Shown here: piece by piece, positions 35,707 through 41,114 of the stretch
Position numbering within the stretch: position 1 is the stretch's first letter
Layout: every line of letters starts with the position of its first letter
DNA from: an uncultured Actinomycetes bacterium
GTDB taxonomy: Bacteria; Actinomycetota; Actinomycetes; Nanopelagicales; Nanopelagicaceae
Length of the DNA: 53,795 nucleotides
NCBI GenBank assembly: GCA_903863015.1
Contig: CAIPAI010000035.1
Span: 1-53,795 of the forward strand
Direction: 5' to 3'
Translations under genes and position numbers: made by a program
The notes under the pieces: generated by a model
Database searches by the model: none
The model's input: the letters and a program-made list of their open reading frames with translations, nothing else
Told to the model about the DNA's origin: nothing

Positions 35707-36114
35707 ATGCCTCAAGATGAGATCCGCGCTCGTGGCTTACGCCTCACACCTCAACGCCAGCTCGTATTAAACGCGGTACGGGAACTCGGACATGCAACGC
35801 CCGAGGAAATTGCGAACACAGTTCGCCAGATGCATCCTGGCATCAACCTTTCCACGGTGTATCGAAACTTAGAGACCTTAGAAACTGCAGGCTTCATCAT
35901 CCATACTCATCTTGGGCACGGCGGCGCTACGTACCACGCGGCCGACGAGATCACTCATCTGCATTTGGTGTGTGGAAAGTGCGGAAAAGTAGATGAGTCT
36001 GAATTAGCTGACGCTAAAGATTTTGTTGAAATCATTTTAAAGAAGCGTGGGTTTGCAACTGATGTCACTCACTTTGCCATTTACGGAACGTGCGCCGCAT
36101 GCCAAGTGAAGTAG
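35707..36114 (+). CDS. nur: Fur-family nickel regulator, Nur-like
   Basis: A 135-residue Fur-family repressor. The winged helix has RLTPQRQLVLNAVRELGHATPEE and INLSTVYRNLETLE. His66, His68 and His122 align with the nickel site recalled for Streptomyces Nur (His70, His72, His126), and His29, His84 and His86 with part of its second site; one second-site His is Ile82. Cys89/Cys92 and Cys129/Cys132 form a structural zinc site. Adjacent ygfZ also fits the Streptomyces arrangement. The matching operator lies before the NiCoT gene at 10865. Confidence 0.87.
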   Translation: MPQDEIRARGLRLTPQRQLVLNAVRELGHATPEEIANTVRQMHPGINLSTVYRNLETLETAGFIIHTHLGHGGATYHAADEITHLHLVCGKCGKVDESELADAKDFVEIILKKRGFATDVTHFAIYGTCAACQVK

Positions 36115-37016
36115 GCAGTGAAGTAAGCAGTCGCGTCCTCGTCGAGAACGGCCCTGATCAAGGTGCGCTCTGGCACTCCGGTTCTTTTGTTCAAGAACAA
36201 CGTGCGCTCCACGAGGGACGTGGCTGGGCTGATCTCGGACATCGACCAATTATCACGGTGAGCGGTGTTGATCGTCTCTCGTGGTTGCACTCACTCACCA
36301 CTCAAGATCTTGAAAAACTTGCGCCCCATCAATGGACACAGGCATTGATTCTGAGCCCGCATGGACATGTAGAACATCACCTCGTTGTGGTTGATGACGG
36401 CACCACTACATGGATCCATGTTGAACCCAATACTTCAGAAGAATTAGTGAAGTACCTCGACTCCATGAAGTTCATGCTTCGAGTCGATGTTGCTGATGTA
36501 AGTTCCGCTTACAAATGTATTCGAGTCCCAGGGCTGCCTGATTTGATTGGGGGACCATTTCGTATCGTGGCGCGGAACGAAACCCTTGTTTTCGCAGCTG
36601 ACGCCTTCGAAGTGGGTATGTGGGCGATCGAGGCAGAGCGCATCGCCGCCGGGCGCCCGCGTTTGAAGTTTGAAACGGATCACAAGACCATTCCTAACGA
36701 AGTCGGTTGGCTGAATACGGCTGTCCATATGAATAAAGGTTGTTATCGCGGCCAAGAGACGGTGGCACGCACCTTTAACCTGGGCAAACCCCCGAGGCGC
36801 CTTGTGCAATTGCATCTAGATGGAAGTGTGGTCTCACTTCCTCCGCATTGCACACCTGTGATGTATCAAGAGAAGCAGGTGGGCTTTATCGGTTCTTCTG
36901 CCTTGCATTATGAGTTGGGACCAATTGCGCTTGCAGTCATCAAGCGCAATATTCCAGGAGATGCGCTGCTGCTGGCTGGCGATATTCCAGCTGCCCAAGA
37001 ACTGAATCTCTCTTAA
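36099..37016 (+). CDS. ygfZ: Folate-binding YgfZ/GcvT-like protein
   Basis: A 305-residue protein of the YgfZ/IbaG-related aminomethyltransferase fold used in repair or assembly of Fe-S clusters. The diagnostic motif KGCYRGQE (near residue 216) is present, and the N-terminal half has GVDRLSWLHSLTTQDLE. The start is uncertain: ATG 36099 or GTG 36090, both inside the end of nur, with no clear ribosome site. It is followed by the amidase gene after 13 nt. Confidence 0.9.
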   Translation: MPSEVGSEVSSRVLVENGPDQGALWHSGSFVQEQRALHEGRGWADLGHRPIITVSGVDRLSWLHSLTTQDLEKLAPHQWTQALILSPHGHVEHHLVVVDDGTTTWIHVEPNTSEELVKYLDSMKFMLRVDVADVSSAYKCIRVPGLPDLIGGPFRIVARNETLVFAADAFEVGMWAIEAERIAAGRPRLKFETDHKTIPNEVGWLNTAVHMNKGCYRGQETVARTFNLGKPPRRLVQLHLDGSVVSLPPHCTPVMYQEKQVGFIGSSALHYELGPIALAVIKRNIPGDALLLAGDIPAAQELNLS

Positions 37017-37029
37017 AGGAAATCGAATA

Positions 37030-38574
37030 ATGACAAATGAGAATAGAGATGGCGCACGTGAATTTGCCCGCTCCCTTGCGCACGATTTGGAATCAATTCT
37101 TAAAGTAGATCTCGGTGAGACTCTTCCCATCTCGTGGCCCCGAACATCCACGATTAATCAGCAGGGTGGGGATTTTAAATCGTCTCATCCCAGTGGATCA
37201 GTAGTCGAACAAGTAAAACTTCAACTTCGCGGCGAAGTCAGTTCAGTTGAATTAGTAACGGCGGTACTACAAAACATTACTGACATTGATCCAAAGATAA
37301 AAGCTTGGACCCATATTTCGCATGATGGGGCAGTCAAGGCAGCGCAAGAAGCGGATAGCCAGCGATTGACGGGATTGCCACTTGGGCCATTGCATGGAAT
37401 TCCAGTTGGTGTGAAAGATATTGTCGATGTATTCGGCATGCCCACGAGCGCTGGATCTAAACATCAGGATGGATTCTTTCCCCAACAAGATGCCGGTGCT
37501 GTCCGAAAACTTCGTGCAGCAGGTGCGATCATCGTTGGCAAGACAAACACTCACGAATATGCCCTAGGTGGAACGACTCCACCTACAAAGAACCCGTGGT
37601 CTCAAGAGCGCATTCCTGGAGGCTCTTCTGGCGGATCAGCAGCCGCTGTTGCAAGTGGACAGATCCGACTTACGTTGGGTACGGATAGCGTCGGATCGAT
37701 TCGCATTCCTTCGAGTATTTGTGGGGTAACTGGCATCCGCCCCACGATGGGACGCGTCTCAAGGACTGGTGTGCGTCCGCTCACTTGGGCGATGGATACG
37801 GTGGGCCCCATCGGACGCACTGTCAGTGATGTGGCTGCCGGACTCTATGCAATGAGCGGGCATGATGCCTTTGATCCATACACGAGCTCTCTTCCGGTCC
37901 CAAACTTTGGGGAGCTGACGTTAGAAAGTCTGCATGGAACGCGTATTGGGATTCCACGCAGTATGTACGAGCCTGCTGAGCCAGAGATACTCACTGCAGT
38001 GGAGAGCGCAATAGATATTTTTCGTCAGGCCGGAGCAGAAATTATCGAAATTGAAGTTCCTTACGTAGACATCACGACCCCGATCGGCATGGCTATATTC
38101 CTTACAGAATCCGCTGAGTACCATCGAAAGCGAATCGATGCTGCACCACAACTTTTCGATCCCGATACTCTCAATTTTCTCGAGCTTGCTCAGGAAATTC
38201 CCGCAACTCTCTACATCCGCGCTCTGCGCGTGCAACGACTCATCGCTGATGAAATTTCTCGACTCTTTGAACACGTGGATGCGATTGTGGTTCCCACTCT
38301 CCCTTGTTCGCCGGCAAAATTTGGGACCCTCACAAACGAACTGGTACCAGTCGGCCAAGGCCAACTCACACTTGCAGAGGCGCACCTTCGAAACAATCTA
38401 CCTTTTGCTTTAGCAGGCGTTCCGGCGAGCAGCCAGCCTTGCGGGTTCGACCGTTTTGGCTTGCCGATTGGCCTATCGATTGTGTCTGCACCATTTAATG
38501 AGACTCAAATCTTAAAACTTATGCAAGTATTCGAGTCGGCAACGGATTGGCACACCAAAGAACCGAATTTTTGA
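37030..38574 (+). CDS. Amidase-signature-family hydrolase
   Basis: A 514-residue amidase. The catalytic Lys is in GIPVGVKDIVDV, and the Ser-cisSer-Lys core is in RIPGGSSGGSAAAVAS and TLGTDSVGSIRIPSSICGVTG, the amidase signature. A 45-residue N-terminal extension precedes the fold. It is not GatA: no gatB or gatC is near. The substrate is unknown. AAAGGAAA lies before the ATG. The bicupin gene follows 31 nt on with its own GGAG site, so both may be one operon for an amide-bearing compound. Confidence 0.9.
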   Translation: MTNENRDGAREFARSLAHDLESILKVDLGETLPISWPRTSTINQQGGDFKSSHPSGSVVEQVKLQLRGEVSSVELVTAVLQNITDIDPKIKAWTHISHDGAVKAAQEADSQRLTGLPLGPLHGIPVGVKDIVDVFGMPTSAGSKHQDGFFPQQDAGAVRKLRAAGAIIVGKTNTHEYALGGTTPPTKNPWSQERIPGGSSGGSAAAVASGQIRLTLGTDSVGSIRIPSSICGVTGIRPTMGRVSRTGVRPLTWAMDTVGPIGRTVSDVAAGLYAMSGHDAFDPYTSSLPVPNFGELTLESLHGTRIGIPRSMYEPAEPEILTAVESAIDIFRQAGAEIIEIEVPYVDITTPIGMAIFLTESAEYHRKRIDAAPQLFDPDTLNFLELAQEIPATLYIRALRVQRLIADEISRLFEHVDAIVVPTLPCSPAKFGTLTNELVPVGQGQLTLAEAHLRNNLPFALAGVPASSQPCGFDRFGLPIGLSIVSAPFNETQILKLMQVFESATDWHTKEPNF

Positions 38575-38605
38575 TCGTTCCAGGACAAGAAGAATTGGAG
38601 TTCAA

Positions 38606-39442
38606 ATGAAGATTGTGCGCACTCGCGAAATGGAGTGGCAAAACGGCTGGGATGTCATTTCGATGATGCCAGATAACTACAAGGAAAATCTAGGGCCTGC
38701 GGAAAAATTAGAAGAGGCCTACTCCAAGTATCTTCAAAAGAATCTCTCAATCGATCTTGAATCAACATTTCGTGGAGACCTCATAGATTTACAACCAGGA
38801 TTCGCCGACCTTACTGACGCCTACCATGACAGCGTTGAGGAGTGCTTCTTTATCGCTGGAGATTGCACCCTCAGCGGTGAGCAGACTTTTTATGGGTACC
38901 ACTACTTCTGGCGGCCTCCAGGCTTTATCCATGCCGCAACGAGCGTTACCGGTTTTAAGGCGCTGCTCTTTCTGCATGGCGAGGATCCATCAGAAGGAAG
39001 TGGACGCGCATCACGAGTTATTCGTCCCACAGAATTAGCTGGCACGAATGCCCTTACTGCTGATGCTGCCGCCGCGCTTGGCCCGCGCGGATGGGTAAAG
39101 ATCGATACTGAAACACTCCCTTGGCTCAGCGAAGAGCAGTTCAAAGGTATGTATCCAGAACTTAATGCCTTCGGATTAAACGGTATAGAAATAAAGATTC
39201 TCTCCATTAACCCCGAAACGCTGGCCATGAGCGCCCTCATTAAGATTCCTGAGAATTTCCAGATTCAAGAGGATTTTTGGGTCCGAGGCTTCCGGGCATT
39301 TGTTCTTGAGGGATCGCTCAAAATTTCTGAGCAAGATTTAGATGCCGAGTCATGGTTTGAGACCTCGAGTGGAGAAGAGCACCAAGGTTTATCTTCTAAG
39401 ACCGGTTCACTGATCTTTGCAAAAATTTCTGCTAAGAATTAA
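38606..39442 (+). CDS. Bicupin-like protein of unknown function
   Basis: A 278-residue cytoplasmic protein with two cupin-like halves. The first has FADLTDAYHDSVEECFFIAGDC and YFWRPPGFIHAAT, in which His, Glu and His sit as metal ligands should. The second (ALIKIPENFQIQ to GSLIFAKIS) is weaker. It follows the amidase gene, preceded by GGAG 6 nt before the ATG. It may act on the product of the amidase, but no reaction can be named. Its stop overlaps the convergent heliorhodopsin gene by 4 nt. Confidence 0.7.
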   Translation: MKIVRTREMEWQNGWDVISMMPDNYKENLGPAEKLEEAYSKYLQKNLSIDLESTFRGDLIDLQPGFADLTDAYHDSVEECFFIAGDCTLSGEQTFYGYHYFWRPPGFIHAATSVTGFKALLFLHGEDPSEGSGRASRVIRPTELAGTNALTADAAAALGPRGWVKIDTETLPWLSEEQFKGMYPELNAFGLNGIEIKILSINPETLAMSALIKIPENFQIQEDFWVRGFRAFVLEGSLKISEQDLDAESWFETSSGEEHQGLSSKTGSLIFAKISAKN

Positions 39443-40200
39443 GCAGCAAGAGTTCCAGCGAAGATTTGCCAAGCGAGCGCTGATTTAGCGACCAAGCTGA
39501 GCACGATGTAGGTGCGTTCTCCGCGGAGATAATTTCCCCATTTTCCACGACCTCGGTATTGCAGAAGTTGCACGGCTGCAAACGAGTTAAAGAATGCGAA
39601 GAGTGAGATCACTATTCCGTAAACGAATCCAGGAGCCGATACCTCACTTGGCGATCCAGGAGCGAAGACGTAAATGGCCACTGCGAGCCAAGGCACGATT
39701 CCAACGATGCATCCGAAGATAAAGGGAAGCCATTCGCCATTTCCAGGCTGGGCGTACTTCTCTTGCAACCAACCGAAGAGAATCATTGCTGCATTGACTC
39801 CGAATATGGCGAGTAATGCAGTGACATCGGCGACGCCACAAATTTGTGAGATGAGCACGATCATTACTGATGAACTCACTGAATATTCAACCCAACGGAA
39901 ATTATTTCGCTTCGCTTCGAGCCCGGCCGCATAACGAGGGAAGAACTTCGGGCTGGCTACTATGAAATGAGCAAGTGCTGAGATTCCAAGGAAGAGCGCA
40001 ACTGCCGGCCCCACTAATACGCTAAATAAAGTGGTGGGTGGCGCAAAGGTAGATCCTGGTGGGCCCGACATATACGTGGCCTGTACAGGTAACGAGAAAT
40101 CGTTGGCTAGCGCAATGACCGCAATCATCTGGAGAAGATGAAAGCTTCCTGCGATGACATTGAACCGACGTAAACGAGGGGCACTCAACTCTTTAGCCAT
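39439..40200 (-). CDS. Heliorhodopsin
   Basis: A 253-residue seven-helix retinal protein of the heliorhodopsin family. The Schiff-base Lys239 is in SLVAKSALAWQ of helix 7, with Ser235 four residues before. The counterion Glu105 is in FRWVEYSVSSS, and His21 and His78 match the two proton-accepting His of the founding member with a constant two-residue shift. Heliorhodopsins have the N-terminus inside and show no known pumping; a light-sensing or enzymatic-partner role is proposed. It follows a DsrE-like gene by 33 nt on the same strand. No carotenoid or retinal synthesis gene is in the window. Confidence 0.96.
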   Translation of the reverse strand: MAKELSAPRLRRFNVIAGSFHLLQMIAVIALANDFSLPVQATYMSGPPGSTFAPPTTLFSVLVGPAVALFLGISALAHFIVASPKFFPRYAAGLEAKRNNFRWVEYSVSSSVMIVLISQICGVADVTALLAIFGVNAAMILFGWLQEKYAQPGNGEWLPFIFGCIVGIVPWLAVAIYVFAPGSPSEVSAPGFVYGIVISLFAFFNSFAAVQLLQYRGRGKWGNYLRGERTYIVLSLVAKSALAWQIFAGTLAA

Positions 40201-40233
40201 AGCGGAACTCTCTTTTCGAAGTTATTAATCAGA

Positions 40234-40587
40234 TTAATAGACGAGCGCCTGCACCGCAGGTTGAAGTATCTCTTCGACAAAACCACTAGCTCCGCGGATC
40301 TCGACCCCTGGGAGTAAGTCCTCTTGCCCAAGCCCACGGCGGCCCAAGCATTGAGTGCAGGCGGTAAGACGTCCACCGGCGCGCACCGCATCGATGAGTT
40401 GATCGAAAGGTGCGCTCTGGTCGAGTTCGATTCCTGCGGCGAAGCCTGGAGTAGCCAATCGCACTGCATCTCCGGTGAGCCAGAGCGAGACAGCCGCGCC
40501 ACTAGCCAGCGCAGTAGCGCATACATTGAGGGCCTGAGACATCTTCTCCGGCTCGACGGTGGTTAATTTCAAAACAAGTGTTGCCAT
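40234..40587 (-). CDS. DsrE/DsrF-like small protein upstream of heliorhodopsin
   Basis: A 117-residue cytoplasmic protein of the DsrE-like fold: TLVLKLTTVEPEKMSQALNVCATAL, then AVSLWLTGDAVRLATPG and the Cys motif LTACTQCLGRRG (two Cys, CTQC). DsrE proteins carry persulfide sulfur on a Cys; other members of the fold have no known reaction. TAGAGT ends 6 nt before the ATG. It heads a two-gene unit with heliorhodopsin and is divergent from nitrobindin. Confidence 0.85.
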   Translation of the reverse strand: MATLVLKLTTVEPEKMSQALNVCATALASGAAVSLWLTGDAVRLATPGFAAGIELDQSAPFDQLIDAVRAGGRLTACTQCLGRRGLGQEDLLPGVEIRGASGFVEEILQPAVQALVY

Positions 40588-40593
40588 AAGTGC

Positions 40594-40613
40594 ACTCTAC
40601 GACCCTCTAGGCT
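40594..40613. promoter_or_regulatory. Divergent leaderless promoter pair, DsrE and nitrobindin
   Basis: TAGAGT on the minus strand (40599-40594) is 6 nt before the ATG at 40587. TAGGCT on the plus strand (40608-40613) is 6 nt before the GTG at 40620. The intergenic region is 32 bp. Confidence 0.55.
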
Positions 40614-40619
40614 GTACAC

Positions 40620-41114
40620 GTGGCATTCGAGATTCCAGCAGACCTGCATCCAGACCTACTCCCACTCTCTTGGCTCCTAGGAACCTGGCGTGGTCGCGGG
40701 CATGGCGAATATCCCGGCATAGAACCTTTCGAGTTCGCTCAGGAAGTGGTCTTTGGCCATGACACTCGCCCGTTCCTCACGTATTACTCACGATCATGGA
40801 TCGTGGATTCAGCGGGCGAGATCCTGCGTCCTGCAGGTAGTGAGACCGGATTCTGGAGACCGAAGCCGAATAACACTCTTGAAGTAGTGCTTGCCCATGC
40901 AACAGGAATTTCTGAAGGCTGGGTGGGCCGCTACGACGGCGCCAAAATTCAGTTGGCTATGGATCATGCCTACTCAGCGCCAAGTGCAAAGACGGTGACC
41001 GAAGGGCATCGCCTCTACGGACTTGTTGAAGGCGAACTCTTCTTCGCCTATGACATGGGTACTCCAGAACATGAGTTACAGCCTCATCTCTGGGCAACTC
41101 TGCCGCGCGCGTAA
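40620..41114 (+). CDS. Nitrobindin-like heme protein (FABP fold, DUF1794)
   Basis: A 164-residue beta-barrel. LLGTWRGRGHGEYP (about residues 19-32) is the family signature, and the C-terminal LQPHLWATLPR carries the His expected to ligate heme. Bacterial nitrobindins bind ferric heme and may react with NO or peroxynitrite. The GTG start at 40620 is set by TAGGCT 6 nt upstream and no ribosome site. The asparaginase gene follows 2 nt on. Confidence 0.9.
   Translation: MAFEIPADLHPDLLPLSWLLGTWRGRGHGEYPGIEPFEFAQEVVFGHDTRPFLTYYSRSWIVDSAGEILRPAGSETGFWRPKPNNTLEVVLAHATGISEGWVGRYDGAKIQLAMDHAYSAPSAKTVTEGHRLYGLVEGELFFAYDMGTPEHELQPHLWATLPRA

Follow-up and report, generated by a model that had tools for sequence, protein, structure and literature searches.

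Heliorhodopsins are light-absorbing membrane proteins whose family traits are an inverted topology, a long photocycle and a lack of pumping, and whose function is at present approached mainly through their gene neighbours. In the available parts of published descriptions these neighbours are diverse (PMC8612252, PMC11109279), and heliorhodopsin action on the product of an adjacent gene has been reported for glutamine synthetase (PMC9529153), an ABC transporter (PMC11109279) and a photolyase (PMC9769723). The accessible texts of the published neighbour studies, including PMC8612252 and PMC11109279, do not name DsrE among the heliorhodopsin neighbours. As for nitrobindin, the part of PMC4255298 available to us describes the actinobacterial protein of the SCO4179 group as an old signature gene whose synteny with a fur homologue is conserved. 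Among the papers searched, none names both DsrE and nitrobindin.

Gene content and transcription signals of the locus

The window (the whole 53,795-nucleotide stretch of DNA that was analysed) comes from an uncultured freshwater actinobacterium of the Nanopelagicaceae. A sequence-only reading of it had described a heliorhodopsin (HeR) gene, a DsrE-like gene and a nitrobindin gene back to back with the latter, and this three-gene layout was borne out by matches to PF18761, PF02635 and PF08768 and by the coordinates (Table 1).

Table 1. Positions in the window of the heliorhodopsin locus features and their supporting evidence
Feature	Position	Strand	Evidence or remark
HeR gene, 253 aa	39439..40200	-	PF18761, 330.8 bits (E 5.8e-99; cut-off 26.7); NCBIfam HeR equivalog NF038020, 339.6 bits (cut-off 100); alignment with PDB 6su3/6uh3; key residues
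Purine-rich ribosome-site-like sequence GAAAAGAGAG ahead of HeR	40208..40217	-	Within the 33 bp DsrE-HeR spacer, 40201-40233
DsrE-family gene, 117 aa, C77-T-Q-C80	40234..40587	-	PF02635, 40.6 bits (cut-off 22.7); AlphaFold; Foldseek
DsrE -10 box TAGAGT, 6 nt ahead of ATG, leaderless type	40594..40599	-	Kept in 4/4 genomes of the genus
Nitrobindin -10 box TAGGCT, 6 nt ahead of GTG, leaderless type	40608..40613	+	Kept in 4/4 genomes of the genus
Nitrobindin gene, 164 aa	40620..41114	+	PF08768, 160.7 bits; PDB 2a13 and Rv2717c homologues
Block of amidase (+), cupin (+) and HeR (-) between YgfZ and DsrE	37017..40233	.	Synteny; at this place only in the genus among the family members examined
Fur-family regulator (35707-36114) and YgfZ-like folate-binding protein (within 36090-37016)	35707..37016	+	Old neighbours of the DsrE/nitrobindin pair

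The heliorhodopsin matched the family profile over its full length, and the solved structure of 48C12 (PDB 6su3) could be aligned with all of it (6uh3 was also aligned). On this alignment all the marks that had been claimed for the protein were found, namely His21, His78, Glu105, Ser235 and Lys239, which correspond to H23, H80, E107, S237 and K241 of 48C12 with a numbering offset of 2 and include the TM7 retinal lysine, the glutamate counterion and the pocket residues. Identity of the protein inside the genus is 90%. Profile searches of the genome returned a single heliorhodopsin gene; a type-1 rhodopsin is present on another contig, and PF15461 (retinal synthesis) gave no match in this genome or in the control genomes.

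The AlphaFold model of DsrE (pLDDT 96.4) was matched by Foldseek to DsrE/DsrF, YchN, DsrEFH and TusBCD structures (3mc3 at E 8e-8; also 1jx7, 2hy5 and 2d1p), and both fold and profile agree with those of the DsrE/TusD sulfur-relay proteins. The CTQC motif claimed for it is indeed present, and C77, Q79, C80, R83 and R84 are invariant across 56 DsrE orthologues, C77 and C80 being candidate carriers of persulfide sulfur. This gene alone matched PF02635 in the profile search of the genome, and no DsrEFH or TusBCD partner genes were found beside it at the locus. Nitrobindin belongs to its family by profile and by alignment of its QPHL segment with At1g79260, the histidine of this segment being presumably the heme ligand, and its score lies under the cut-off for the NCBIfam peroxynitrite isomerase (122.8 vs 225).

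The starts of DsrE and nitrobindin are 32 bp apart, and in both genes a TANNNT box ends exactly 6 nt ahead of the start codon. Of the 133 candidate starts in the window, 11 carry TANNNT at offset 6 and 0-4 at any other offset, a sharp peak which indicates that leaderless starts are normal here. No TANNNT was found 6-7 nt ahead of the heliorhodopsin start, and none in the DsrE-HeR spacer is common to all four genomes of the genus; the other three species carry GGAAAGAG as the counterpart of GAAAAGAGAG, in a similar place before HeR. HeR thus has only a ribosome-site-like stretch and no leaderless box of its own, and it plausibly follows DsrE in one unit, co-transcribed from the DsrE promoter. 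In all four genomes the gene lies on the same strand as DsrE, in fixed order and at a spacing of about 30-34 bp or shorter. Of the short leaderless DsrE-HeR unit that had been proposed, the DsrE box stands, and a shared transcript is a reasonable expectation from the spacing and the boxes.

Distribution of the DsrE-heliorhodopsin and DsrE-nitrobindin pairs

The sequence-only reading had proposed to count DsrE-like genes directly upstream of heliorhodopsin across actinobacteria, and this count went against conservation of the pair outside one genus. DsrE is carried by 78 of 296 family genomes, 74 of them outside the genus, and 38 of these 74 also carry HeR. It lies directly upstream of HeR in 4/4 genomes of the genus and in 0/38 of the other Nanopelagicaceae genomes with both genes; by coordinate comparison, the two genes were never 100 kb or less apart on one contig in these 38 genomes. 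In a phylum sample, HeR was found above cut-off in 108 of 396 genomes, and DsrE was directly upstream in none of the 80 HeR-bearing genomes of other actinobacterial classes tested. We also fetched 80 HeR loci with flanks of up to 6 kb, some of which were ended by contig ends, and the 77 loci outside the genus showed no relatives of DsrE, nitrobindin, amidase or cupin within 6 kb, some flanks being short. Among 33 relatives of the family, both genes occurred in 8, HeR only in 12, DsrE only in 9 and neither in 4, with no positive co-occurrence (odds ratio 0.30, p 0.16).

As a co-transcribed partner pair, DsrE and HeR thus share strand and short spacing across the species of the genus but are not conserved beyond it. 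The suggested lead of a sulfur- or redox-active partner for heliorhodopsin holds only insofar as the pair is kept in 4/4 genomes inside the genus, and DsrE as a general sulfur partner of HeR is rejected outside it, because the pair is absent elsewhere (0/38 and 0/80).

In one genus outside the class (G077, G103), a DsrE of a different subfamily (27 bits) lies about 3 kb upstream of HeR, with a disulphide reductase and MscL in between. This was considered as an independent recurrence and rejected, since the DsrE is unrelated and ~3 kb away and the number of such cases is about at chance level (0.25 expected, by a rough estimate); two further genomes of that genus lacked the arrangement on their HeR contigs. 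At L210:4433-8221 and L209:5793-10060, a DsrE of the other subfamily, a pyridine nucleotide-disulphide oxidoreductase and MscL stand ahead of HeR on the same strand.

The old and widespread neighbour of DsrE is nitrobindin, not HeR. Nitrobindin was found in 56 of 60 relatives. In relatives, DsrE stands back to back with it and in most cases faces YgfZ tail to tail. The typical order in relatives is Fur, YgfZ, DsrE, nitrobindin, asparaginase and MshA, with YgfZ and DsrE convergent and DsrE and nitrobindin divergent, some genomes lacking one gene or having extra genes in between. The order from Fur to nitrobindin occurs free of HeR in 13 Nanopelagicaceae genomes (G006, G008, G009, G010, G012, G014, G017, G022, G023, G028, G032, G034 and G035), YgfZ and DsrE being separated by other genes in a few of them. 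The first 60 relatives include 17 family members that carry DsrE and lie outside the genus; the divergent pair is present in 16 of these, the 17th being split by contig ends. Beyond the family the pair was also found in seven genomes, each of a different family. A DsrE orthologue was detected in 235 of 395 class genomes, and since DsrE occurs with CxQC and with nitrobindin across the class, free of HeR, both the motif and the link to nitrobindin exist in the absence of HeR. With nitrobindin as the old neighbour of DsrE, and HeR joined to it in only one genus, the DsrE-HeR pairing gives little guidance on function.

Family knowledge on DsrE, nitrobindin, Fur and YgfZ points to thiol/persulfide handling, protection against nitric oxide and peroxynitrite, and upkeep of iron and Fe-S clusters. 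The DsrE/nitrobindin pair beside Fur and YgfZ would form an old functional unit. Positions 35707-41114 of the window hold this candidate unit, which recurs across many actinobacterial families; a description of it as a unit was not found in the papers searched. At this locus, conservation of the divergent DsrE/nitrobindin pair with Fur and YgfZ may tell more than the DsrE-HeR pairing does.

Origin of the heliorhodopsin block and divergence of DsrE

The 3.2 kb amidase-cupin-HeR block splits YgfZ from DsrE only in the genus (G000-G003, including the split contigs of G002) and is missing at the YgfZ-DsrE junction in the other family members examined. In G016, of the sister genus, YgfZ and DsrE lie tail to tail with their ends ~20 bp apart and without HeR. 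No tandem repeats and no tRNA were found at the putative insertion site. An anomalous composition of the block was considered and set aside, as the amidase GC3 of 0.435 is low yet inside the range of the window, and HeR and DsrE are unremarkable.

The reading that we prefer, with a probability of about 0.75, is a late insertion or relocation of HeR beside the old DsrE/nitrobindin unit. The gene identities, the gene order with its distribution and the leaderless boxes are observed, and the shared DsrE-HeR unit, the direction of the event and the functions are inferred. An ordinary freshwater-actinobacterial HeR gene would have been inserted or relocated, together with amidase and cupin, between YgfZ and the tail of the old leaderless DsrE, and would now be expressed behind DsrE in a common unit, borrowing the DsrE promoter. 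The protein would most likely work as is thought elsewhere, as a slow light-switched membrane protein that is co-made with an adjoining stress or metabolic gene; HeR might act on DsrE directly, though nothing indicates this. It is parsimony alone that favours insertion or relocation over ancestral presence and loss. In the HeR tree of the family, a near-basal position of the genus has moderate support, and an older presence of HeR at the locus may be compatible with it. An arrangement ancestral to the family, with one loss in the sister genus, another in the ancestor shared by the remaining members and HeR moving later, would agree with the near-basal branches that both HeR and nitrobindin of the genus form in the family trees and with the many different places in which HeR sits in other genera. 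However, it would require at least two separate losses of one block from one junction, and the DsrE of other families likewise has no adjoining HeR, so that we regard it as unlikely.

The DsrE of the genus is 94-97% identical within the genus and 42-62% identical to orthologues outside; against the sister genus, DsrE shows 43% identity and the adjacent nitrobindin 82%. It has changed at 11 positions that are near-invariant elsewhere, including A81 to L, directly after CTQC, and a new cysteine at 23. Relative-rate tests gave an excess of change in DsrE on the genus branch (p 0.004-0.39 by outgroup, and <0.05 with four of eight outgroups). Three causes would fit such divergence: the protein adapted to a new partner, it was replaced from a source outside the sample, or its constraint was relaxed for a time. 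The divergence together with the strong conservation inside the genus, which a new partner could bring about, and a gene order fixed in 4/4 genomes count against the preferred reading. HeR and DsrE might be true partners in the genus, illuminated HeR altering, on the cytoplasmic side, the thiol/persulfide state of DsrE or its binding, and the shared strand, short spacing and fixed order in all four genomes, the shift in DsrE sequence at the base of the genus and the precedents of HeR acting on the product of an adjacent gene (PMC9529153, PMC11109279) all speak for this. Yet the pair is absent outside the genus, CxQC exists without HeR, the rate excess is significant only in part (p 0.004-0.39) and unrelated genes are commonly found at short same-strand spacing upstream of HeR, and we consider partnership improbable. 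That HeR and the diverged DsrE, once adjoining in the genus, became a light-controlled thiol/persulfide switch, HeR acting on a DsrE shifted at the 11 positions, appears quite improbable.

Alternatively, the DsrE of the genus could be a replacement that arrived with HeR from an unsampled donor already holding the pair. The low identity of DsrE to the sister genus next to a well-conserved nitrobindin would be explained by this, as would the fact that the DsrE change and the HeR block fall on one branch; however, a search for a xenologous donor found none, donor-like DsrE being seen in 0/296 family and 0/395 class genomes with a best non-genus match of 62%. DsrE also meets nitrobindin at a compact, intact junction and has an unremarkable GC3, and we regard replacement as very doubtful. 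Under late insertion or relocation, the case shows that the neighbour clue for HeR can mislead, in that a redox-looking neighbour is old with another partner and HeR is the newcomer. The diverged DsrE of the genus is nonetheless one cheap, testable candidate for a HeR partner.

Heliorhodopsin neighbourhoods and comparison with known systems

A same-strand gene lies 100 bp or less upstream of HeR in 37 of 76 other loci. It encodes glutamine synthetase at 13 loci, a zinc-type dehydrogenase at 12, a CopC-domain protein at 3 and other products at the rest. In Nanopelagicaceae HeR swaps neighbours often, and its varied contexts in the family agree with the diversity described in the available parts of PMC8612252 and PMC11109279. 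At L043:3797-5120, L054 and L088, a CopC-domain gene or a gene of the same cluster is directly ahead of HeR at a spacing of ~17 bp. Paired HeR genes ~9 kb apart on a single contig were seen in G010:C14 and G021:C9, the second with a lower family-profile score.

In twelve freshwater actinobacterial loci (L049:4963-7528 and, similarly, L059, L060, L065, L067, L079, L080, L091, L093, L097, L100 and L103), the gene upstream of HeR, at most ~70 bp away, encodes a zinc-binding dehydrogenase. HeR is oriented towards a gene for an S26-type peptidase, and this peptidase gene is in turn divergent from one for a nickel superoxide dismutase (PF09055, 143 bits). In the available main text of PMC8612252 this context was not found. 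As a lead for HeR, such a recurrent, superoxide-related setting is better than DsrE.

Compared with 48C12 and the freshwater actinobacterial heliorhodopsins, the window protein is of the same family and full length, with the same retinal lysine, counterion and pocket residues; it differs at ten genus-specific positions and is otherwise ordinary. The known HeR operons are those with glutamine synthetase (PMC9529153), with an ABC transporter and ten neighbour groups (PMC11109279) and with photolyase (PMC9769723). Unlike these, the window pair is limited to one genus; like them, it has HeR as the downstream gene, at short same-strand spacing, with an enzyme-like gene ahead. The DsrE of the window shares its fold and the Pfam DsrE domain with the small sulfur-relay proteins DsrE, TusD and YchN (DsrEFH, TusBCD), its structural matches being of low sequence identity (12-21%). 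In contrast to DsrEFH and TusBCD, it is a lone gene with no adjoining DsrFH or TusBC, and it carries a CxQC pair where the known sulfur-relay proteins have one demonstrated persulfide cysteine. Finally, nitrobindin adjoins a Fur-family gene in the window as it does in the SCO4179 group (PMC4255298), and to this arrangement the window adds a DsrE gene divergent from nitrobindin, a partner that the available part of that paper does not discuss.
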